A stretch of 45,170 nucleotides of DNA from Oscillospiraceae bacterium (GTDB lineage Bacteria; Bacillota; Clostridia; Oscillospirales; Acutalibacteraceae): positions 1 through 45,170 of the forward strand of contig SVPH01000022.1 in the NCBI GenBank assembly GCA_015065965.1, given 5' to 3'. A program made the position numbers and the translations under genes. Each line of letters starts with the position of its first letter. Positions within the stretch are counted from its first letter, which is position 1. Shown one piece after another: positions 1,086 through 16,535 of this stretch. The notes beneath the pieces were generated by a model, which did no database searches, had not been told where the DNA came from, and saw nothing but the letters and a program-made list of their open reading frames with translations.

Positions 1086-2681
1086 ATGGGTCTCGGTGCA
1101 AAAATTAAAGAGGTAACCGGCTTTGAAGGCAATGTTAAAGAAACACTGCGCCCGATGATCAACTTTACCTGTGCAAACATCACCATAGGCGGCGCAGGTT
1201 ATCCGATAAACCAATTCCATCAGCAGTTCCTTGCATATGTTGAAGGGATGAAAACCGGTGCTGCCGGCAAAATCTCCTTAATTTCAGGTCTTTGGGATGC
1301 AATAAGTGACCCGATAATGGGCATAATTACGGACAGGACCAAATCCAAACTCGGCAGACACCGTCCGTACATGATTATATCTGCTATTCCGTTTGCACTC
1401 GTTTACATATTCAAATGGACTTCATTCGGAATATCAGCAAGCGGCAATGACTCGGCAACCTGGTGGTGGTATCTTTTTTCCGCCATAATGTACAGCACAT
1501 TCATGACGATGATGAGCATTCCGCATACAGCAATGCTGCCTACGGTTGCTCCTACATACTTTGAGCGCTCGCAATACAGAATAGTTGAATACATGATGAA
1601 CTCCGTCGGCCAGGTTCTATCCTACGTTTTTGCAGGTCTTGTGCTCAGCGGATTTGATATAAAAACCGCTCTTGTCGGTCTGCCTGTACCCTCTCCCGAT
1701 GACCGTTCAAAATACACCCTCGTTGGCATTGTTCTTGCGGCATGGTTTTTATGGGCACCGATTATCAGTTTCTTCAAAACAAAAGAACCGTCATCCGCCG
1801 ACCAGATAAACGAAAAATTTGACTGGAATCATTTCATAAACGAATACAAACTTGTTTTCAAAAGCAGAGCGTTCAGGCAGTATTTCATAATGTCGCTCTT
1901 TTTCTCAATGAGCCGTTATTTCTGCAACTACGCAGACCAATATTTCATGACCAGCGTTACGGATACCTACAACCTTTTCATTTCAATGAACATTGTTGCA
2001 GGCACTTCCGAATTCATGGGTTCTCCCATAAACTACATTCTTTCAAGATACAAAGGCAAAACCGCCGGCGGCAAATTGCTCGGCCCTCTTATGGTTTTCG
2101 GCATTGCAATCAACTCGCTGATTAACTATACAACACCAAAAGCCATCCGTTATGCGGTTATTGTTATTTCATCAATCTGCTATAATATAGGATTTTCGGG
2201 TCCGGGTTTTGCAATTGATATTATCCAGCCCGATATCACTGACGTTGATGAATTGATAACAGGCAGAAGACGCGAAGGTGTTATCTCCACTTTCAGCACT
2301 TTCTGTAAAAAGACAGTCAGCAGCATTATGGGTTATTCTGTTGGCACGGCTCTTGAATGGTTCGGTTACAATCCGGATATCAAAGAACCTCATCTTCAGC
2401 CCAGACGCACAAATATCGGTCTGAGGGTTTGCTATTCGGTTATCCCCGCAATTCTCGCTCTCTTCTGCGTTATCTCGGTTTACAGATATTCAATGACCAA
2501 AACCGACCACGAAGAAATAAAAAGAGTTATCAAAGAAAAACACGAAACAGGCTCTTGCAGCATATCAGATACCGGCAAAAAGCGAATTGAAAAAATCGCA
2601 GGTCAGAAATGGGAAGATATGTGGATAGGCAAGAGTGATATTGACAGAAATCTCGAAATCGCTTTACAAGGAGAAAAATAA
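1086..2681 (+). CDS. GPH-family sugar:cation symporter (MFS)
   Basis: A 531-residue polytopic membrane protein, likely importing a sugar or glycoside with Na+ or H+. The family signature is clear near residues 70-95: [10 protein letters not shown], then [14 protein letters not shown], which matches the D-P-x-x-G / D-R-T-x-S-x-x-G-R-x-R-P loop of GPH transporters. About 12 hydrophobic segments are visible, then a soluble C-terminal tail of about 55 residues ([20 protein letters not shown]). The start is supported by AAGGAGG 7-8 nt upstream. It is a close paralog of the preceding gene, with its own promoter and the preceding terminator between them. lepA follows 1 nt after the stop, so the two are probably co-transcribed. 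The long conserved tail is larger than in typical GPH proteins such as MelB and may be regulatory. The substrate is unknown. Confidence 0.9.
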
Positions 2682-2682
2682 A

Positions 2683-4497
2683 TTGGCAGTATCAAAAGAT
2701 AAAATCAGGAATTTTTCCATTATCGCTCACATTGACCACGGCAAGTCAACCCTTGCAGACAGACTTCTTGAAAAAACAAAGTCTGTTGCTCAGCGTGATA
2801 TGACCGCTCAACTTCTGGATAAAATGGATCTTGAGCGTGAGCGAGGAATCACAATTAAAGCACATGCCGTTAAACTCAACTATGTTGCAGAAGACGGCGA
2901 GGAATATGTTCTCAACCTCATTGACACTCCGGGTCACGTTGACTTTAATTACGAGGTGTCTCGTTCACTTGCAGCCTGCGAAGGCGCAGTGCTTATAATC
3001 GACGCATCTCAAGGTGTTGAAGCGCAGACCCTTGCAAACACTTACCTTGCTCTTGACCATGATCTTGAACTTGTTCCCGTTATCAATAAAATCGACCTGC
3101 CCTCTGCAGACCCTGACAGGGTTGCCGCCGAAGTTGAAGATGTTATCGGGCTTGACTGCTCGGAAGCGCCCCGTGTATCGGCAAAAACAGGCGTTAACGT
3201 TGAGCAGGTTCTTGAACAGATTGTCAAATGCATTCCCGCCCCCGAAGCAAATGATGATTTGCCGCTCAGAGCGCTTATATTCGACTCTGTTTATGACAGT
3301 TACAAAGGCGTTATTGTTTATGTAAGAGTCAAAGAGGGCAAAATCAAACCCGGCGACACAATGAGAATGATGGCAACCGGTGCAGAATTTACTGTTGTGG
3401 AAACAGGATATATGAGAGCAACGCTTCCTGAACCCTGCAACGAACTTACAGCAGGTGAGGTTGGATATATCACGGCATCAATCAAAACAGTAGGCGATGC
3501 AAGAGTCGGTGACACTGTCACAACTGTTGAAAATCCTGCCGCTGAGCCGCTCCCCGGCTACAGAAAAGTTAACCCCATGGTTTACTGCGGTGTTTACCCT
3601 GCCGACGGCGCAGATTATGAAAATCTCCGTGACGCTCTTGAAAAACTTCAACTCAACGATGCCGCTCTTACCTATGAGCCTGAAACATCGGGTGCGCTCG
3701 GATTCGGCTTCCGCTGCGGTTTCCTGGGTCTGCTTCATCTTGAAATCATCCAGGAACGCCTTGAGAGAGAATATGATCTTGACCTTGTAACAACAATTCC
3801 GAGCGTTATTTATAAAATCAATCTTACAGACGGCTCAATGGTTGAGATTGACAACCCCACACATTACCCTGACCCTGCAACCATATCCTCATGCGAAGAA
3901 CCTTTCACCAACGCTCATATTTACGCACCCACAGAATATGTTGGCACTATTATGGACCTTTGTCAGGACAGACGCGGTATTTTTAAAAACATGGATTATA
4001 TTACACCTGACCGTGTTGATATCCACTACGAACTTCCGCTCAATGAAATCATCTATGACTTCTTTGACTCGCTCAAGTCAAGAACAAGAGGCTATGCTTC
4101 ATTTGACTATGAAATATCGGATTACAGAAAGTCAAATCTTGTTAAACTTGATGTTCTTCTCAACGGCGATATAGTTGATGCTCTTTCGTTTATCATTCAT
4201 TCCGAAAAAGCATATTCAAAAGCAAGAAAGATTGCCGAAAGGCTCAAGGAGCATATCCCCCGCCAGATGTTTGAAATCCCCATTCAGATTGGTATCGGCG
4301 GCAAAATCATTGCCCGTGAAACCGTTAAAGCAATGCGTAAAGATGTTCTTGCAAAGTGTTACGGCGGCGATATTACCCGTAAGAAAAAACTGCTTGAAAA
4401 GCAGAAGGAAGGCAAGAAAAGGATGCGTCACTTCGGCACGGTTGAAGTGCCTCAGGAAGCATTTATGGCAGTTCTTAAACTCGATGACAACGATTAA
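2683..4497 (+). CDS. lepA: Elongation factor 4 (LepA), back-translocating GTPase
   Basis: LepA is a ribosome-bound translational GTPase related to EF-G. All G motifs are present: AHIDHGKS (G1), RERGITIKA (G2), DTPGH (G3), NKIDLP (G4) and SAKTG (G5). The LepA-specific C-terminal region with basic residues ([20 protein letters not shown]) and the ending [14 protein letters not shown] are intact. I place the start at the TTG at 2683: it gives the usual N-terminus ([21 protein letters not shown]), the usual length of 604 residues, and has CAAGGAG about 9 nt upstream. An in-frame ATG at 2635 lies inside the preceding transporter gene and would add 16 atypical residues. Only 1 nt separates the transporter stop from this start, so translation may be coupled. 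hemW follows, as in many Firmicutes, but after an inserted repeat element. Confidence 0.97.
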
Positions 4498-4501
4498 CCA
4501 T

Positions 4502-4527
4502 AAAGGCGGCAAATTGCCGCCTTTTTT
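4502..4527 (+). terminator. Rho-independent terminator after lepA
   Basis: A nearly uninterrupted dyad, AAAGGCGGCAA / TTGCCGCCTTT, is followed by further T residues and begins 5 nt after the lepA stop. Its T-run (TTTTTTAGGG) overlaps the left end of the inverted-repeat element. Confidence 0.9.
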
Positions 4528-4804
4528 AGGGTAACGAATATAACCCGAACCTGCCCGAAAGCGAGCCTTTCCAGCGCTTTTCGGGGTTTCGGGTTAGAAA
4601 GGCGTCAGCCTGTCATCACCCTCAACCACCAAAAATCATCTGAAAATCCTTCTCTTTCGGGTCGAAGATTTTTTGTCGAGAGAATTTTAGATGATTCAAG
4701 GCAAAAACGGAGCAAATCCTTGACGGATTTGCGAGTATTTTAACGAAGAAACAGCGAAAATAATCCGACAAAAAACATAGTTCGGGTTATGCTCGTTGCC
4801 CTAA
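4526..4804. mobile_element. MITE-like inverted-repeat element, non-coding, about 279 bp
   Basis: The two ends form a 25-bp imperfect inverted repeat matching at 22 of 25 positions: left 4526-4550 (begins TTAGGGTAACGA, ends ATAACCCGAAC), right 4780-4804 (begins GTTCGGGTTAT, ends TCGTTGCCCTAA). The three differences are transitions. The inside has no convincing gene but holds further dyads, for example CCCGAAAGCG (near 4554) with CGCTTTTCGGG (near 4576), and GCCTTTC with GAAAGGC. It fills exactly the gap between the lepA terminator and the hemW ribosome binding site. It could be a MITE mobilised by a transposase elsewhere, or a large REP/BIME-like RNA-forming repeat. No target-site duplication is obvious beyond the TTA/TAA ends. 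No second full copy exists in the window. Confidence 0.7.
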
Positions 4805-4813
4805 GGTGATTTA

Positions 4814-5902
4814 ATGAAACCCATAGGATTATATCTGCACATCCCATTTTGTAACGGAAAATGCCCTTATTGCGATTTTTATTCCGTTATGCCCTTCGGT
4901 GAAACTGTTGATAAATATGTTGACACTCTCTGCAAAAAAATTGACAGTGCAGGCAGAATTTATGACACGGTTTATTTCGGCGGCGGTACACCGTCCTTAA
5001 TCGGGTCCGACAATATCGCAAGAATCATGTCACACATAAAAAGAACGGATAACTGCGAGGTAACTCTTGAATGTAATCCGTCGGATACGGGGCGCATTAA
5101 TTCGTCGTTTGATTTTGGCGTTGTTGCCGAAAGCGGAGTTAACCGCATTTCAATGGGGCTGCAAAGTTCAGATAATGCTGAGAGAAAAATTCTCGGCAGG
5201 CGCGGCAACTGCGAAGATGTTGAAAGAGCAATAGAAAGGGCAAGAAATTCAGGCATAGAAAATATCTCGCTTGATTTGATGCTCGGTATCCCCAATCAGA
5301 CTGAGGAAAGCCTCAAAAAATCAATAGAATTCTGTCAAAAATCAAATGCAAAACACATAAGTGCATATATTTTAAAGATTGAAGAAGGAACACCTTTTTT
5401 CAAGATAAAAAGCACTCTCGACTTGCCTGATGAAGACAAAACCTGTGATTTATACCTCTCTGCCGTAAACGAACTAAAAAAAGCAGGATATTATCAATAC
5501 GAAATATCCAACTTTTCTCAAAAAGGCTATGAAAGCCGCCATAATCTGAAATACTGGCACTGCGAAGAATACCTAGGCATAGGTGCATCAGCGCACTCTT
5601 TTGTTGACGGTAAAAGATTTTATTATGAACGAAGCATTGACGGTTTTATAAGCGGAGCAGCACCTATTGACGACGGCATCGGCGGAGATGAAGAAGAATA
5701 CATCATGCTTGCTCTGCGCCTTTCGGAAGGTTTAAATTTTCAAAAATACCAAGACCGTTTCGGACAAAACATTCCCCCAAAAGTGATAAGCAAAGCAAAA
5801 GAACTTGAAAAATTCGGTCTTGTAACAGTAAATAAAAAAAGCATTTCACTTACCGTTGACGGTTTTTTGGTCTCAAACTCCGTCATAAGCAGCCTGATTT
5901 AA
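4814..5902 (+). CDS. hemW: HemW-type radical SAM protein (heme chaperone / HemN-like)
   Basis: A 362-residue radical SAM enzyme of the HemW group, once annotated as oxygen-independent coproporphyrinogen III oxidase and now regarded as a heme-transfer protein. The [4Fe-4S] motif is C13-x3-C17-x2-C20 within HIPFCNGKCPYCDF. The Phe after the third Cys region, without the extra Cys of true HemN, places it with HemW. YFGGGTPS (the SAM-binding GGGTPS motif), LECNPSD, GVNRISMGLQS and ISLDLMLGIPNQT follow in the family order. The start ATG has AAGGTGA 6 nt upstream, just at the right end of the inverted-repeat element. Adjacency to lepA is common in Firmicutes; the usual downstream hrcA-grpE-dnaK genes are absent here. 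Confidence 0.93.
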   Translation: MKPIGLYLHIPFCNGKCPYCDFYSVMPFGETVDKYVDTLCKKIDSAGRIYDTVYFGGGTPSLIGSDNIARIMSHIKRTDNCEVTLECNPSDTGRINSSFDFGVVAESGVNRISMGLQSSDNAERKILGRRGNCEDVERAIERARNSGIENISLDLMLGIPNQTEESLKKSIEFCQKSNAKHISAYILKIEEGTPFFKIKSTLDLPDEDKTCDLYLSAVNELKKAGYYQYEISNFSQKGYESRHNLKYWHCEEYLGIGASAHSFVDGKRFYYERSIDGFISGAAPIDDGIGGDEEEYIMLALRLSEGLNFQKYQDRFGQNIPPKVISKAKELEKFGLVTVNKKSISLTVDGFLVSNSVISSLI

Positions 5903-8652: not shown

Positions 8653-8685
8653 ACGGCGGAGAGCATTGCTCCCCGCCGTCTTTTT
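8653..8685. terminator. Shared hairpin terminator between secreted-protein gene and spo0A
   Basis: A 12-bp stem with one wobble (ACGGCGGAGAGC / GCTCCCCGCCGT, loop ATT) lies between two convergent genes. A TCTTTTT tract follows on the + strand and overlaps the spo0A stop codon. On the - strand the hairpin is followed by TTTATGTTAT, so it may serve both directions, more strongly on +. Confidence 0.8.
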
Positions 8686-9445
8686 ATACCGTTTTCATTC
8701 GCAGTTTGAGATTATCGCTTATCATTGCTATAAACTCACTGTTTGTGGGTTTGCCTCTTTCGTTCTGAATCGTATAGCCGAAATACGAACTAAGAACATC
8801 AACATCGCCTCTGTCCCATGCAACTTCAATTGCGTGTCTGATTGCTCGCTCAACCCTTGACGGAGTTGTCTTAAAGGTTTTTGCAACCGTAGGATAAAGG
8901 ATCTTTGTTACCGAACTTATCATTTCACTGTTGTTAACTGAAAGGATTATCGCTTCCCTGAGATACTGATAACCCCTTATATGCGCAGGAACACCTATCT
9001 GGTGCATAATCTGCGAAACTACAACTTCCAAATCCTTTATGCCGCTATGACCTACATTTGAATTGTGGATATCAGTAAATTGAATAATGCGCTCTGCCAA
9101 CATTGAGGGATCATAAGGTTTAAGGAAATAATAATCTGCTCCGTTGCTGAGAACTTCACTTTCAAACCGCTGATTATCAGTGCTTGAAAGCACCATAACA
9201 ATAGGTCGTTTTTCCAAATGCATTTTGTCAATTTCTCTGAGAACACCGAGCGCATCGAGTCGCGGCATAAAGCCATCCATCAAAAGAACATCAGGCACAT
9301 CGCCGTCTTTTAATTTTTCAACAATTCTTCCGCCGTCTTTAATTACGGTTGAAACTTCAAACCCATTAGATCGCAGCACGCCTGCGAGTTCATGCGAAGT
9401 TTCACTTCCGTCCTCAGTTATCATTGCTTTCAACATTTTTCTCAT
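8684..9445 (-). CDS. spo0A: Sporulation master response regulator Spo0A
   Basis: A 253-residue response regulator that, once phosphorylated, switches on sporulation and represses growth-phase genes. The receiver domain (about residues 5-125) has the acidic pocket E11-D12, phosphoacceptor D57 (LLMDGFMP), S87/S88 and K109 (YFLKPYD). After a linker, the effector domain (about 140-253) carries the family hallmarks IGVPAHIRGYQYLREAI, YPTVAKTFKTTPSRVERAIR and HAIEVAW. The ATG has CGGAGGT upstream. The gene follows spoIVB, the standard Clostridia/Bacilli order, with a sigma-A-like promoter and a perfect 0A box in between, pointing to autoregulation. Nothing essential is missing. Confidence 0.98.
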   Translation of the reverse strand: MRKMLKAMITEDGSETSHELAGVLRSNGFEVSTVIKDGGRIVEKLKDGDVPDVLLMDGFMPRLDALGVLREIDKMHLEKRPIVMVLSSTDNQRFESEVLSNGADYYFLKPYDPSMLAERIIQFTDIHNSNVGHSGIKDLEVVVSQIMHQIGVPAHIRGYQYLREAIILSVNNSEMISSVTKILYPTVAKTFKTTPSRVERAIRHAIEVAWDRGDVDVLSSYFGYTIQNERGKPTNSEFIAMISDNLKLRMKTV

Positions 9446-9557: not shown

Positions 9558-10775
9558 TTAAGAGGCAAGCGGAATTTCGGCATTAGTCAGAGAATCCATG
9601 GTTTCAATCATCCGCTGTGCAAAAACCGCATACCCTTGCTGAGGTTCGGAGATGAACACATGGGTAACAGCACCTATCAGCATTGAATTCTGAATTATAG
9701 GGCTGCCGCTCATGCCCTGAACTATACCGCCTGTTTTTTCAAGCAACTCGGGATCGGTCACCTTTATTATCATATTTCTGGCAGATAAATCCGAGGAGGG
9801 ATAAATCTTTACAATTTCAATATCATAATATTGAGGGCCTCTGTCATCAATTGTTGTTATCATCTGAGCCGCTCCGAGTTTTATTTCGCTTTCAAGAGCG
9901 ACCGGAACCGTTTTTTTGCCCGAAGGCTGCAAGAGTTCACCGTAAACCCCCATATCGTGATTCACACGAAGGCTTCCGATGACCGATTCCGAAAACACTC
10001 CGCAAAGTTCACCCGGATTACCTGCGCTGCTTTTATAGAAGCCGTTAACTTTTGCTCTGACAGCCTCACCGTTATTAAGCGGCATTATCTTACCAGTATC
10101 AACATCACAAACGCCATGCCCAAGCCCTGCAAACATTCCGGCATTATCATCATAAAACGTGACCGTGCCTATGCCTGCCGAACTGTCTCTTACCCATATT
10201 CCTGCTTTGTATCCGCCATTAACGGAAAATGCAGGTTTAAGATTAAGAGCCAAAGTTTCACCGTTTCTCTCAACTTTCAAATTCAGTCCTTTACCTTCAG
10301 ATTGCTCCACCGCATCGGTTAACTGCTGAGAGTTTAGAACCGGTTTGTTGTTGATATGAGTAATTATATCGCCACATTTCAGCCCTGCCTCCAGAGCAGG
10401 GTCAACAGAGCCGTTCGGAGTTGTTACCGAATCAATGCTAACTACTATGACTCCTTTGGTATACAGTTTTATACCGAAAACATCTCCGCTCGGCACAACA
10501 TACCTGCGTTTTGTTTTGTTAACGGTTATATCCTTAACAGGAAATATTTTGAGCGCGGTTATCTGAGAATTATACTCCTTTTTCAATTTTCCCGACAAAG
10601 CAGGCTGCACTTTTTCATCTTCTTTAACAGAAAAAAACAAACCTAAATCAACACCGTCATTTTCAATTACACTTATTTCATCAGGCAAATTAGAAACACC
10701 AAACGCTACCGTTGAGTAAATCAAAACGCATAGAATACACGCCGTTGCTGCCATAACTTTAAAAAAACGCTTCAT
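9558..10775 (-). CDS. spoIVB: SpoIVB serine peptidase (sporulation checkpoint)
   Basis: SpoIVB is a secreted, self-cleaving serine peptidase made in the forespore; it signals to the mother cell to activate pro-sigma-K processing. The 405-residue product has an N-terminal membrane/signal segment (about residues 7-25), a PDZ domain (about 105-180, with DPALEAGLKCGDIITHINNK) and a C-terminal S55-family peptidase domain. Catalytic candidates are H220 (GLGHGVCD), D341 (KVTDPELL) and S356 in GMSGSPI. The ending SGSPIIQ...IGAVTHVF is characteristic of the family. GGAGGTG lies 5-6 nt before the ATG. It is followed by spo0A as in most endospore formers; the usual upstream recN is replaced here by a divergent copper operon. 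I could not identify a convincing sigma-F/G promoter. Confidence 0.95.
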   Translation of the reverse strand: MKRFFKVMAATACILCVLIYSTVAFGVSNLPDEISVIENDGVDLGLFFSVKEDEKVQPALSGKLKKEYNSQITALKIFPVKDITVNKTKRRYVVPSGDVFGIKLYTKGVIVVSIDSVTTPNGSVDPALEAGLKCGDIITHINNKPVLNSQQLTDAVEQSEGKGLNLKVERNGETLALNLKPAFSVNGGYKAGIWVRDSSAGIGTVTFYDDNAGMFAGLGHGVCDVDTGKIMPLNNGEAVRAKVNGFYKSSAGNPGELCGVFSESVIGSLRVNHDMGVYGELLQPSGKKTVPVALESEIKLGAAQMITTIDDRGPQYYDIEIVKIYPSSDLSARNMIIKVTDPELLEKTGGIVQGMSGSPIIQNSMLIGAVTHVFISEPQQGYAVFAQRMIETMDSLTNAEIPLAS

Positions 10776-11076: not shown

Positions 11077-11105
11077 TTGACATATACCCCTAAGGGGTAT
11101 ATAAT
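11077..11105 (+). promoter_or_regulatory. csoR-copA promoter with embedded CsoR operator
   Basis: A perfect TTGACA (11077-11082) and a perfect TATAAT (11100-11105) are 17 nt apart. The spacer is almost wholly a palindrome, ATATACCCC-TAA-GGGGTATAT at 11082-11102, matching the G/C-tract dyad bound by CsoR-type repressors. Bound CsoR would block both promoter elements; Cu(I) would release it. Confidence 0.9.
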
Positions 11106-11131: not shown

Positions 11132-11431
11132 ATGGAAAAGGAATGTGCATGCTGCAAAACAAAGAAGCGTTCCGAAGAAGAATATAAAAGCCTTATTCAC
11201 AGACTCAATAGAATTGAAGGTCAGATTCGCGGAATAAAAGGTATGCTGGAAAGAGACGCATACTGCCCTGATATTCTTATTCAGTCATCGGCAGTCACGA
11301 GCGCAATGAATGCGTTCAACAAGGAATTGCTTTCAAATCATATAAAAACCTGCGTTGCCAATGATATACGCGATGGCAAGGACGAAATAATCGACGAACT
11401 TCTCTTAACTTTACAAAAACTGATGAAGTAG
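11132..11431 (+). CDS. csoR: Copper-sensing transcriptional repressor CsoR
   Basis: A 99-residue all-helical repressor of the CsoR/RcnR family. The Cu(I) ligand set is C45 (AYCPDILIQ), H70 and C74 (SNHIKTCV), as in Mycobacterium and Bacillus CsoR (Cys-His-Cys). The N-terminal helix carries RLNRIEGQIRGIKGM, the conserved DNA-contact region. Three additional Cys occur in the extreme N-terminus (CACC at 5-8), a short extension seen in some family members that could bind metal. The ATG is preceded by a weak GGAAGTGAG. It lies behind a promoter containing its own operator and 8 nt before copA, so it autoregulates a two-gene copper efflux operon. Confidence 0.95.
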   Translation: MEKECACCKTKKRSEEEYKSLIHRLNRIEGQIRGIKGMLERDAYCPDILIQSSAVTSAMNAFNKELLSNHIKTCVANDIRDGKDEIIDELLLTLQKLMK

Positions 11432-11439
11432 GTGATTAA

Positions 11440-13938
11440 ATGGAACAATATAATGTTAGCGGAATGAGTTGTGCCGCCTGCAGTGCAAGGGTTGAAAAAG
11501 CAGTTTCAAAGGTTAACGGCGTAACCTCTTGCTCAGTCAGTCTGCTGACAAATTCAATGGGCGTTGAAGGCACCGCATCTGAGTCAGAAATAATTGCCGC
11601 TGTTGAAAGTGCAGGCTACGGCGCATCAAAAAAATCAGGCAAAACAGAAACTCAAAAATCTGAAACTCATGATGCTCTTAAAGATAAAGAAACTCCGGTT
11701 TTAAAGAAAAGGCTTTTTGCATCCCTCGGATTTTTGATAATATTAATGTATATTTCCATGGGACACAACATGTGGAACTTTCCGCTGCCGCAAATTTTGG
11801 CATCGAACCACATTGCAATCGGCATGCTGCAAATGATTCTTGCCGCAATCATAATGATAATAAATCAAAAATTTTTTATCAGCGGCTTTAAAAGCGTAAT
11901 TCACGGTGCACCGAATATGGATACACTGGTTGCACTCGGCTCCGGTGCATCTTTTCTGTGGAGCGTATACATTCTTTTTGAAATGACTGCTGCTCAGTCT
12001 GCAAACAACACCGAAGCCGTTATGCAATACATGCATCAATTCTATTTTGAATCGGCAGCCATGATTTTAACGCTTATCACGGTTGGTAAAATGCTGGAAG
12101 CACGCTCAAAAGGCAAAACCACGGACGCACTCAAAGGGCTGATGAAACTTGCTCCGAAAACCGCAACGGTAATTAAAGACGGCAAAGAAGTATCTGTATC
12201 CGTATCTCAAGTTACAAAAGGCAGCGTGTTTGTTGTAAGACCCGGCGAAAGCATTCCTGTTGACGGTGTTGTTATTGATGGCATCAGTGCTGTTGATGAA
12301 TCTGCACTTACGGGCGAAAGCATTCCTGTTGATAAGACTGTCGGGGATTCGGTTTCCGCCGCAACAATAAACCAATCAGGATTCATAAAATGCGAAGCAA
12401 CAAGAGTCGGTGAAGATACCGCTCTTTCGCAAATCATAAAAATGGTCAGCGATGCTGCAGCAACAAAAGCACCCATAGCAAAAGCAGCGGATAAAGTTGC
12501 AGGAGTTTTTGTGCCAACAGTTATTTCGATTGCAATTATAACGATAATCGGCTGGCTTATTGCAGATAAAACATTCGGATTTGCCCTTGCAAGAGGAATA
12601 TCGGTTCTTGTTATCAGTTGCCCTTGCGCGCTCGGACTAGCAACACCCGTAGCAATTATGGTAGGAAGCGGTATGGGTGCAAAAAACGGGATTCTTTTCA
12701 AAACCGCATCATCGCTTGAAACTGCAGGCAAAGTCAGCGTGGTTGCACTTGATAAAACAGGAACAATTACGAACGGCACACCGAAAGTCACGGATATAGT
12801 TGCAATTGATGTAACCGAAAGCGAACTTCTAAAAGCCGCATTTTCACTTGAAAAGAAAAGTGAACATCCGCTTGCAAAAGCCATCACAGAGAAAGCCGAA
12901 GAACTCAAAATTCCGTTTGATAATGTAGAAAATTTCAAAAGCCTTACGGGCAACGGACTTATTGCAAAACTCGGAGAAAGCACCCTGATCGGCGGAAGTC
13001 TTAAATATATTGACAGCAAATTGCATCTTTCGGAAACCGTAAAAGAAAAAGCAACCTCGCTTGCCGAAGAAGGTAAAACACCCTTGCTTTTTGCCAAAGA
13101 CGGCAAAGTACTCGGCATAATTGCAGTTGCTGATACAATAAAGAAAGAAAGTCCCGAAGCAATAAAGCAACTGAAAAACATGGGAATAAAAGTTGTAATG
13201 CTTACGGGTGACAATGAAAAAACAGCCAATGCAATCGGCAAAATCGCAGGAGTCGATGAAGTTATCGCCGGAGTCCTGCCTGACGGAAAAGAAACTGTTA
13301 TACGCAGACTGATGAAACAAGGCAAAGTTGCGATGGTCGGCGACGGAATCAACGATGCTCCCGCACTGACAAGAGCCGATATCGGCATAGCCATCGGAGC
13401 AGGAACGGATATTGCCATTGATGCGGCAGATATTGTTCTGATGAAAAGCCGCCTGAGCGATGTACCTGCCGCAATCCGCCTGAGCAGAGCAACTCTGCGC
13501 AACATTCATCAAAACCTGTTTTGGGCGTTTATGTATAATACTCTCGGCATTCCTCTTGCCGCAGGTTTATTTATACCTGTTCTGGGCTGGGAACTCAGCC
13601 CGATGTTCGGCGCAGCGGCAATGAGCCTTTCAAGTTTTTGCGTTGTATCAAATGCATTAAGACTTAATTTGTTTAAAATTCACAGCAGTAAAAAAGATAA
13701 GAAAATCAAAACAAAGGAGATAAAAACTATGGAAAAAACAATGAAAATTGAAGGCATGATGTGCGGTCACTGCGAAGCAAGGGTAAAGAAAACTCTTGAA
13801 GGAATAGACGGTGTTGATTTTGCTGATGTAAACCACGAAACCGATACTGCAGTAGTAACTCTCACTGCCGAAATCTCAAATGATGTTCTCAAAAACGCAG
13901 TTGAAGAACAGGGTTATACAGTTATTGAAATTAAATAA
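11440..13938 (+). CDS. copA: Cu(I)-exporting P1B-type ATPase fused to a C-terminal CopZ-like domain
   Basis: An 832-residue copper-exporting ATPase in the plasma membrane. In order: an N-terminal heavy-metal-associated (HMA) domain with C11-x2-C14 (GMSCAACS); membrane helices; actuator loop TGES at 291-294; the ion-binding CPC at 394-396; phosphorylation motif DKTGT at 438-442; HP (SEHPLAKA) at 476-477; GDGIND at 634-639; and the last two helices. A typical CopA would end near residue 745-755 (NALRLNLFK). Here the frame continues through a Lys-rich linker into a second HMA domain with C775-x2-C778 ([10 protein letters not shown]). That domain begins at an ATG preceded by an ideal ribosome binding site, so it looks like a once-separate copZ gene joined by loss of the copA stop. 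The start ATG has AGGTGA upstream, and csoR lies 8 nt before. Confidence 0.95.
13729..13938 (+). CDS. copZ: Probable internally initiated CopZ-like copper chaperone
   Basis: Within the copA frame an AAAGGAGA sequence (13713-13720) is followed after 8 nt by the ATG at 13729. Initiation here would give a 69-residue soluble HMA domain ([20 protein letters not shown]...) with C12-x2-C15, the size and pattern of CopZ/Atx1 chaperones that deliver Cu(I) to CopA and CsoR. The ribosome binding site sits in the linker codons Lys-Glu-Ile, as expected if copA and copZ were adjacent genes whose intervening stop was lost. Both a fused CopA-CopZ and a free CopZ could be made from one mRNA. Seen: the site, start and frame. 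Inferred: that it is used. Confidence 0.6.
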
Positions 13939-13940
13939 AA

Positions 13941-13976
13941 AGCAAAAAGCGGTGTCACACGACACCGCTTTTTGCT
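13941..13976. terminator. Bidirectional hairpin terminator shared by copA and glycerate kinase
   Basis: A perfect 16-bp stem (AGCAAAAAGCGGTGTC / GACACCGCTTTTTGCT, loop ACAC) starts 2 nt after the copA stop. The A- and T-runs inside the stem serve either direction. The last codons of the convergent glycerate kinase gene (...AASGVV-type tail, stop at 13955) are encoded within the hairpin itself. Confidence 0.9.
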
Positions 13977-15067
13977 GCTTTCAAGGCTATATTATATAAA
14001 TCTTCTTTGCATGTTCGCTTGACTTCTTCAAATGATTTTTCAATTTCACAAGCAAAATAAACTTCTGAAATGCACAGTTTTTTTATTTCTTCAGCACCAT
14101 TTCCTCTGCTGCCGCAAATTGTAATAACCTTTTTGTTAAGCCTTGCCGCTCTTTTAGCAACGCCTGAAATTACCTTACCGTTAACGCTCTGAAAATCAAG
14201 CCTGCCTTCACCTGTTATAATCAAATCGGCATCAGCGGCTTTTTTATCAAAATCAGCAGCGTCAAGAAGAATATCAATCCCCTTTTTCAGTTCGGCATTC
14301 AAAAATGCAACTGCGCCTGCACCCATTCCGCCTGCAGCACCTGCACCTTTAATACCGGCTGCTTCAATTGATAAATCATTCTTTATTATTTCTGCTGCGT
14401 GGCGAAGTCCGCTGTCAAGGCGTTCAACCATTGCCGTATCTGCACCTTTCTGCTGTGCAAAAATATATGCCGCTCCGTTTTTGCCGTAAAGCGGATTTTC
14501 AACATCGCAGGCAACCGTAACAGGAATATCAAATGTTTTTTCAGGTTTAACAATCTTTGCAACCTTTGTTAATGTCCCTCCGACCGGCACAAACGCATTG
14601 CAGTTTTCATCAAGGAACTTCCAACCGAGTGCAGCCGCCATTCCGAAACCGCAATCATTTGTTGCACTGCCGCCAAGACCAAGCAGGATTTTCTCCGCTC
14701 CGTTTGAAACAGCATCGTTTATAAGTTCTCCCACTCCGAATGTTGTTGACTTTTCGGGATTCTTATTTTTTCCTGCAAGCGGCAGACCTGCACAAGCCGC
14801 CATTTCAATAACTGCAGTTTTATCCGAAAGCATGAGGTATTCGGCAGATATCTTTTCCCCGAAAACTCCGCTTACAACAGCATTTTTGAGTTCACCGCCA
14901 AGGATTTCATGCATACAGGCACAAAGCCCCTCGCCGCCATCGGCAGCGGGGGACTTTACTATTTTTGCGTTGTTAATTGTTTCTGCAAATGCCTGCCCGA
15001 TAATATCGCAAACCTGCTGAGCAGTCAGCGTACCTTTAAAACTGTCGGGCGCAATGAGTATGTTCAT
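13955..15067 (-). CDS. Glycerate kinase (GlxK/GarK family)
   Basis: A 370-residue kinase phosphorylating D-glycerate, normally to 2-phosphoglycerate. The family start MNILIAPDSFKGTLTA is clear, followed by SPAADGGEG, LLGLGGSATNDCGFGMAAALG, GAGAAGGMGAG and LIITGEGRLDFQS. The frame extends upstream, but the ATG at 15067 gives the family N-terminus and lies 1 nt after the stop of the peptidase gene, so translation is probably by reinitiation; the ribosome binding site is poor. It is the last gene of the long - strand transcription unit. Its 3' end is folded into the shared terminator. The physiological substrate is inferred from the family only. Confidence 0.93.
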   Translation of the reverse strand: MNILIAPDSFKGTLTAQQVCDIIGQAFAETINNAKIVKSPAADGGEGLCACMHEILGGELKNAVVSGVFGEKISAEYLMLSDKTAVIEMAACAGLPLAGKNKNPEKSTTFGVGELINDAVSNGAEKILLGLGGSATNDCGFGMAAALGWKFLDENCNAFVPVGGTLTKVAKIVKPEKTFDIPVTVACDVENPLYGKNGAAYIFAQQKGADTAMVERLDSGLRHAAEIIKNDLSIEAAGIKGAGAAGGMGAGAVAFLNAELKKGIDILLDAADFDKKAADADLIITGEGRLDFQSVNGKVISGVAKRAARLNKKVITICGSRGNGAEEIKKLCISEVYFACEIEKSFEEVKRTCKEDLYNIALKAAKSGVV

Positions 15068-15068
15068 A

Positions 15069-16535
15069 TTATTCAGCCGAAGCCTTTCTGATATATCTTT
15101 TAAAGAATGCAACGCCCGAAGCCACGGTATCAACAGGAATTCTCTCATTTGTACCGTGAGTGCAGCGAAGAAGCGAAACACTTACCTTATAGGGTGCATA
15201 GCGATATATGTTTTCACAGATGGGTTCATAATAACATGCATCTGTGCCGCCCATAACAAGATACGGAGCAACTATGCTGTCCTTATTATCCTGCATACAG
15301 ATTTCTTCAATAATCTTGAAAGTTCTTGAATCTGTAGGCGAGAATTTTGATGCTTCTTTTGCCTTGAGCACCTTAACTTCAATATCCTTATTTCTGCAAA
15401 CTTTACGGATATGATTTTCAACATCTTTAACTGTTGTGCCGGGCATCTGCCTGAAATTAACCGTAACAGTTGATTTCTGAGGAAGAACATTTGCTGCAGG
15501 GCTGCCCTGAGCCATTGTAACAGCGGTTGTTGTTCTAATAAGACAAGCAGCAAAAGGAATTTTCTTCATAATAAACTTAAGCAGCGGGTGGAAAAGTTTA
15601 AGGTTGCACATAATAAGTCTTGCAGGATATGTGCAGTTTCTGCCGATATTTGAGAAAAGTTCCTTAACAAAAGGAAGAAGTTCTGCTTTGAACTGATTGT
15701 TTTCAAGATCCTTGATAACATTTGCAAGTTTTCCAAGACCTGAATGAACGGGAGGCTGCGAAGAATGGCCGCCCTTTGCATTAACTGTGATTTCAAAATC
15801 GGTATAACCTTTTTCTGCTACGCCGATACCGACAAGTTCTTTGTTATTAAGAATACCTTTAACATTAACCGGAATGATTGCACCGCCTTCATCAAGAACG
15901 CTGTCAAGATGAATTCCTCTTTCTTTGAGAGTAAGCATTATATTCTTTGCGCCGCCGCTTTCAGATGCAACAACTTCTTCATCCTGACCGAAGAGAAGAT
16001 AAACATCTCTTTCGGGCTGAAAACCTTCTTCAAGGAGAGTTTCAACTGCATCCATAACAGCAACAAGGTGGTTTTTCATATCAAGAGCGCCTCTGCCCCA
16101 AATGAACTCACCGTCATTATAACCGCTGAACGGCGCATAAGTCCAATCCTGCTCTGTTCCTTCCGAAATGGGAACAACATCTTGATGAGCAAGCAAAGCG
16201 ATAGGTTCAAGGTCATCCCTCGTACCTTTCCAACGGAAGATAAGGCTTGCTTCCTGAACAACCTCTTTTGTAAGATTTTTGTGAACAAGAGGATAGGCTT
16301 CTTCCAAAAATTTATGGAACTTTTCAAACTGGCCGAAATCAACCTTTGACTTGTCCGGATAACTGATTGTAGGGATTGAGATTGCTTTTGAAAGGTTTGC
16401 CTGCGCTTTCTTTGCGTCAACCTTTTCCTCAGTTGGTGTTCCGTAATCTTTTTTCTTCGGAACAAAAAATGCTGCTTTGATTGCCGTAATAACTATAGCC
16501 AGAGCAATAACGGCAAGAATAATATAAGGCCACAT
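15069..16535 (-). CDS. Membrane-anchored M20-family peptidase (PM20D1-like)
   Basis: A 488-residue metallohydrolase of the M20 family, closest in pattern to the long-form carboxypeptidase S / PM20D1 group that cleaves or forms N-acyl amino acids and dipeptides. An N-terminal hydrophobic segment (residues 3-25) would anchor it, with the catalytic domain most likely outside. Zinc-site motifs are present: LLAHQDVVP (His and Asp), GRGALDMKN (bridging Asp), GQDEEV (catalytic Glu and ligand), VLDEGGA, and a late His (LRCTHGTNE). The dimerisation lid region (KGGHSSQPP) is intact. AAAGGATG precedes the ATG. It sits 1 nt before glycerate kinase and 23 nt after the zinc-ribbon gene. Localisation and substrate are inference. 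Confidence 0.88.
   Translation of the reverse strand: MWPYIILAVIALAIVITAIKAAFFVPKKKDYGTPTEEKVDAKKAQANLSKAISIPTISYPDKSKVDFGQFEKFHKFLEEAYPLVHKNLTKEVVQEASLIFRWKGTRDDLEPIALLAHQDVVPISEGTEQDWTYAPFSGYNDGEFIWGRGALDMKNHLVAVMDAVETLLEEGFQPERDVYLLFGQDEEVVASESGGAKNIMLTLKERGIHLDSVLDEGGAIIPVNVKGILNNKELVGIGVAEKGYTDFEITVNAKGGHSSQPPVHSGLGKLANVIKDLENNQFKAELLPFVKELFSNIGRNCTYPARLIMCNLKLFHPLLKFIMKKIPFAACLIRTTTAVTMAQGSPAANVLPQKSTVTVNFRQMPGTTVKDVENHIRKVCRNKDIEVKVLKAKEASKFSPTDSRTFKIIEEICMQDNKDSIVAPYLVMGGTDACYYEPICENIYRYAPYKVSVSLLRCTHGTNERIPVDTVASGVAFFKRYIRKASAE

Follow-up and report, generated by a model that had tools for sequence, protein, structure and literature searches.

A conserved ribosome binding site and start codon inside a Clostridia copper pump gene very probably also yield a free copper carrier

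Introduction

Some genes contain a second translation start within the coding sequence, as in the SctQ/HrcQ genes, where the internal start yields the free C-terminal part of the protein. Two proteins are also obtained from the copper ATPase gene copA of E. coli, where a -1 frameshift yields a putative copper chaperone of 70 aa besides the transporter and where the short product comes from the 5' part of the gene (PMC5009743, accessible portion). Work on E. coli copA by Drees (2017) and Meydan (2017) is cited in the accessible portion of PMC7558416, which also gives the motif MxCxHC as the mark of CopZ2-like chaperones. Unlike the E. coli frameshift product, the copper chaperone is typically encoded by a separate gene (PMC10187127, accessible portion).

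In this work, a third arrangement is described from a 45,170-nucleotide stretch of DNA from an Oscillospiraceae bacterium (contig SVPH01000022.1, assembly GCA_015065965.1), referred to as the window. A sequence-only reading of the window had proposed that copA runs on in frame into copZ as a fusion, that the ribosome binding site and start codon of copZ are retained inside the fusion, and that the stop codon between the two genes was lost recently. We will examine the locus, the occurrence of the same arrangement in relatives, and the explanations that can be offered for the internal start.

The copA-copZ locus

The features of the locus are as follows.

11077..11105, + strand: promoter-like TTGACA-17-TATAAT upstream of csoR, matching the sigma-70 consensus at 12 of 12 positions
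11083..11101, + strand: inverted repeat TATACCCC-TAA-GGGGTATA in the promoter spacer, candidate CsoR operator
11132..11431, + strand: csoR-family repressor gene, 99 aa (PF02583, 101.2 bits, cut-off 22.8)
11440..13938, + strand: copA-copZ fusion gene, 832 aa, 88.0 kDa (TIGR01511, 587.2 bits, cut-off 397)
11449..11619, + strand: N-terminal HMA domain with a CAAC motif (profile search)
13669..13728, + strand: Lys-rich linker from the end of the ATPase (LRLN) to the internal Met
13714..13719, + strand: internal Shine-Dalgarno (SD) sequence AAGGAG (letters checked; conserved in relatives)
13729..13938, + strand: internal ATG and nested 69-aa CopZ-like frame, CGHC motif, 7.6 kDa
13941..13976, no strand assigned: terminator-like hairpin of 16 pairs, 3' of the copA-copZ stop

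The frame from 11440 to 13938 has no internal stops and begins 8 nt after the stop of csoR. In the 832-aa ORF, Pfam recognizes an E1-E2 ATPase, a HAD hydrolase and two stretches of HMA, so that an HMA domain lies at either end of the copper ATPase, and the proposed fusion of copA and copZ in one frame is borne out by the in-frame second HMA. The protein passes the curated cut-off of the copper-translocating P-type ATPase model TIGR01511 and has the CopA hallmarks, namely a CPC metal site, DKTGT and an N-terminal CxxC HMA. The CPC, the DKTGT and both HMA cysteines are invariant in 31 aligned sequences, that of the window included. By these marks the ORF is a CopA copper ATPase and a putative copper exporter. 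It scores below the cut-off of the E. coli-type equivalog model PRK10671 (668.1 vs 1316 bits) and thus is not of the E. coli subtype.

The repeat TATACCCC-TAA-GGGGTATA resembles what we take to be typical CsoR operators, and copper would probably switch the operon on through CsoR. The hairpin at 13941..13976 was called on the - strand; on the + strand its T run falls inside the stem. It is overlapped by an ORF on the - strand (13955-15181) that is convergent on copA and resembles a glycerate kinase gene. Two further ORFs, adjacent to each other on the - strand (8684-9445 and 9558-10775), look to us like spo0A and spoIVB, and the host organism may be a spore former.

The internal start and the nested CopZ-like domain

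The linker contains AAAGGAGA at 13713-13720, which covers AAGGAG, and 9 nt separate AAGGAG from the in-frame ATG at 13729-13731, residue 764 of the ORF. The ATG of copA itself is preceded by AGGTGA, and on visual inspection the internal site appears no weaker. The 69-aa piece opened by the internal ATG spans positions 1-61 of the 62 in the PF00403 HMA profile (61.7 bits, cut-off 24.8). It is a complete HMA with the MxCxxC motif, in the form MMCGHC, and it matches the solved CopZ structures 6ff2, 1k0v and 2qif across nearly its full length. Since it scores under the cut-offs of all three NCBIfam CopZ models (62.3/85, 56.4/91 and 48.3/95 bits), it is named CopZ-like here.

Occurrence of the fusion in relatives

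The arrangement was followed through 319 loci: that of the window, 80 from named relatives, 129 from the family and 109 from the class. The named loci are the best 80 of a longer list from a whole-protein scan and are biased to full-length matches. The family search (200 genomes) and the class search (196 genomes) gave their loci among the matches listed, one per genome, and the reading of both excluded fragments and the weakest matches. All loci except L135 were classified by script (318/319); L135, inspected individually, is a fusion as well and has GGAG and an ATG. Four loci that the script pattern missed (L039, L129, L219 and L279) were counted as fused after reading.

All of the best 80 named relatives (80/80) are single-frame fusions with SD and Met. 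Among the matches listed, 96 of the 128 script-classified family loci are fused with Met and SD, five are fused without Met and one is fused with Met and without SD; of the unfused loci, 13 have a separate downstream copZ-like ORF and 12 have none that was found, and one locus at a contig end (L114) is unclassified. The corresponding numbers for the 109 class loci, again among the matches listed, are 63 fused with Met and SD, three fused without Met, one fused with Met and without SD, 27 unfused with a separate copZ-like ORF and 15 unfused with none found. In total, 250 of the 318 loci are fused, and in 242 of the 250 a Met lies 5-16 residues ahead of the HMA motif. Evtepia gabavorous (L068) and Fusibacillus kribbianus (L060) are among the organisms that carry the fusion.

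These counts bear on the age of the fusion. A recent loss of the copA stop, or a sequencing error, could have joined two genes and left the ribosome binding site as a relic, and a separate copZ-like ORF at most 200 nt after copA, preceded by an SD of at least 4 nt, occurs in 38 of the 318 loci as a possible fusion precursor. A recent origin is ruled out by the fused relatives in all three samples, including two same-genus genomes (G145 and G015), and is given almost no probability; an assembly error hiding a stop codon is very unlikely, as relatives share the fusion. The proposed recent stop-codon loss is thus abandoned: the widespread occurrence of the fusion with SD and Met indicates that it is old in the lineage and under selection. 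At one relative, L054, the copA match at 2001-5060 holds seven stops in the given frame and is interrupted.

A phylum search of 149 genomes gave 27 new loci read among the best matches, two of which repeated earlier genomes; the remaining 25 were excluded from the main counts. Among these best matches 15 are unfused and 10 are fused. All 10 fusions have the Met, with an SD of at least 5 nt in eight (the GGTGA of L328 being doubtful), of 4 nt in one and none in one. Within one genus (g318), the best copA ORF is unfused in one locus (L327) and fused in the other (L328).

On a FastTree tree of the 318 ATPase cores, the fused and unfused states require 16 or more changes, and those of the start codon number 6 or more; these counts give no direction. 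In a smaller tree, the sister groups L147/L148 and L171/L172 differ, one being fused with SD and Met and the other having a separate downstream copZ ORF, which indicates a switch between the fused and separate states. The linkers are open in the copA frame, as the definition of a fused locus demands, and 85% of the other two frames have a stop.

Conservation of the SD and the start codon

An SD of at least 4 nt precedes the internal Met in 240 of the 242 fused genes that have one, and an SD of at least 5 nt in 233. This count allows a spacing of up to 12 nt; at up to 10 nt the number in a smaller set was 175/178, and it is the 12-nt limit that puts L052, L174 and L258 in the SD class. The spacing to the start is identical to that of the window in 159 of the 233. 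By comparison, the ATPase-coding region of these 242 genes has 5634 further in-frame ATGs, and only 227 of them follow an SD of at least 5 nt. The retention of a ribosome binding site and start, as first proposed for the window, therefore extends to the relatives. The linker varies from 12 to 70 aa over the 242 genes while the SD-ATG unit is constant, and the domain that the ATG opens is a whole HMA, of 63-76 aa.

The linker is rich in Lys and Glu, and both the linker and the Met could be kept for the sake of the protein, with the SD a by-product of AAG-GAG codons. A synonymous null was used in which the amino acids are fixed and the codons are drawn by the usage of each gene in 1000 shuffles. 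Such shuffles alone produce an SD of at least 5 nt in about a third of the genes (21.4/61), which is what this explanation has to offer. Among representatives below 65% identity, however, 58 of 61 genes have the SD, compared to 21.4 +/- 3.4 in the shuffles and a maximum of 31 in 1000; below 80% identity the numbers are 145 of 151 and 60.5 +/- 5.3. Additionally, the SD core occurs in three codon registers (174, 54 and 5 of the 233), over Lys-Glu and similar pairs, mostly Gly-X, and Arg-X, respectively, and thus the nucleotide sequence is conserved over differing amino acids. As a full account the codon by-product is rejected on the null and the registers, and we give it hardly any credence. The internal SD and start exceed chance expectation.

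Two fusions that lack the Met are informative about what is kept. In L226 a GTG stands at the Met position behind a perfect SD, AAGGAGG. L274 (genome G374) encodes three HMA domains in a single frame, one at the N-terminus and two at the C-terminus; no Met lies ahead of the first C-terminal HMA, and AAAGGAG with an ATG lies ahead of the last only. The other six fusions without an internal Met are L099, L100, L118, L133, L201 and L255. L201 has an SD-like match of 5 nt, AAGGA, that is displaced by 20 nt, and the other five have a match of at most 4 nt; in L133 and L255 a GTG or TTG lies nearby in frame, with no 5-nt SD before it. With L226 and L274 left out, the co-loss of SD and Met has a Fisher p of 1.6e-6, in a sample whose relatives are not independent. 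A tree-based paired test, in which L274 was coded as start-less, found five pairs (median p 0.125), of which four agree, none oppose and one shows no difference. Loss of the SD tends to accompany loss of the Met.

The internal SD might instead serve as a translational pause site that aids the folding of CopA, with no free CopZ made. SD-like stretches between domains could hold ribosomes back. A pause site, however, needs no ATG at a fixed distance, and the Met is found in 242 of the 250 fusions and is replaced by GTG once. The tendency towards joint loss and the whole HMA opened by the ATG also argue against pausing, which we regard as very improbable.

The stretch from SD to ATG has a mean unpaired probability of 0.71 at 240 sites vs 0.46 at 720 random sites in the same genes. 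Compared with synonymous shuffles, the stretch is only slightly more accessible (mean z 0.42, 60 loci). Since the difference is strong relative to random sites but weak relative to the shuffles, it was put down mostly to composition, and the idea that the start region is specially unfolded was set aside.

A further possibility is that translation of free CopZ does begin at the internal start, but mainly on a short transcript from a promoter in the 3' part of copA. Differential transcripts of E. coli copA appear in the title of Drees 2017, as cited in the accessible portion of PMC7558416. In a 165-base stretch whose end lies 15 nt ahead of the start, promoter-like matches of at least 9/12 were found at 53 of 240 loci, compared to 37.0 +/- 3.8 in synonymous shuffles, and the window has one at 13679-13706 (9/12). 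Matches of at least 10/12, however, occur at six loci against 4.5 expected and none reaches 11, and the excess at 9/12 may reflect the A-rich Lys codons. The window region has nine matches, close to the 7.0 expected. Such a promoter would require the same SD and ATG; we consider this route unlikely, though the most plausible of the alternatives to internal initiation on the full-length mRNA.

Type of chaperone and sources of free CopZ

The motif CxHC is found in 235 of 240 C-terminal domains, in none of 239 N-terminal domains and in 36 of 40 separate CopZ-like proteins; two of these 40 are encoded 700 and 879 nt away from copA and are possibly unrelated. An HMA search covered 70 chosen genomes: 54 with the start (G374 with L274 among them), eight without the start or SD, seven in which copA is unfused, and G264, the genome with the GTG. 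A stand-alone HMA ORF was taken as one no longer than 160 aa that scores above the Pfam cut-off, counted by hand. No such ORF was found in 26 of the 54 with-start genomes and at least one was found in 28, and in the 26 the internal start would thus be the sole source of free CopZ. In the window genome, which is 86% complete so that a copZ may have been missed, the search found no further HMA domain. If start-less fusions are compensated by a separate copZ, stand-alone HMA ORFs should be more frequent among them. They are present in seven of the eight genomes without the start (six with no Met, two with Met and no SD), which is the expected direction; at p 0.12 this was not counted as support.

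Proposed mechanism and significance

We regard it as highly likely that the gene is a long-conserved dual-coding copA, which specifies both a CopA-CopZ fusion of 88.0 kDa and a free CopZ of 7.6 kDa, the latter through internal initiation. Ribosomes that start at 11440 would make the CopA exporter with the CopZ-like chaperone tethered to its C-terminus by the charged linker; the open frame, conserved in relatives, indicates this product. Other ribosomes, guided by AAGGAG, would start at the ATG at 13729 and make the same chaperone as a free protein of 69 aa; this we infer from conservation. The kept, working-looking site fits the earlier suggestion that one mRNA could give both products. From the known roles of CopZ and CopA, the free chaperone would pick up Cu(I) in the cytosol and hand it to CopA, and the tethered copy would provide each pump with a donor of its own. 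With somewhat less confidence, we favor the broader view that Clostridia fused copZ onto copA more than once, retaining the ribosome binding site and start of copZ, such that tethered and free chaperone are made in a ratio set within one mRNA as a convergent counterpart of E. coli copA(Z).

A copA-copZ gene reads as one long ORF and its nested start is easily overlooked: of the 318 loci sampled, 240 have a copA that encloses a CopZ-like chaperone and its start, which a one-ORF annotation would hide. If free CopZ is made, two unrelated routes, frameshifting in E. coli and internal initiation here, would have evolved towards a pump and a chaperone from one gene, which would suggest selection for coupling the dose of the two. 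The few lineages with a fusion that lacks the start offer a natural test of tethered vs free chaperone.

Comparison with known systems

Internal initiation is known in kind; its use for CopA and CopZ and its breadth in Clostridia appear to be new, and the accessible portions of the open-licence full texts on copA gave no description of an internal start or initiation in the gene. The SctQ/HrcQ genes, as described in the accessible literature, share with copA-copZ a translation start inside the gene, but belong to an unrelated protein family with an unrelated function. CopZ2-like chaperones are alike in their motif (MxCxHC in the accessible portion of PMC7558416, MMCGHC in the C-terminal domain here) and differ in being encoded alone and not within copA. 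Separate copA-copZ pairs specify the same two proteins, as at the 38 of 318 loci with an SD of at least 4 nt before the copZ-like ORF, but here no stop lies between the genes and the full-length CopA carries CopZ. The closest parallel is E. coli copA with CopA(Z), where one copper ATPase gene also yields a transporter and a putative chaperone. The same end, as the sequence-only reading had suggested, would be reached here by another mechanism: the chaperone is the C-terminal domain, encoded at the 3' end of the gene, and its free form is proposed to arise by in-frame internal initiation.
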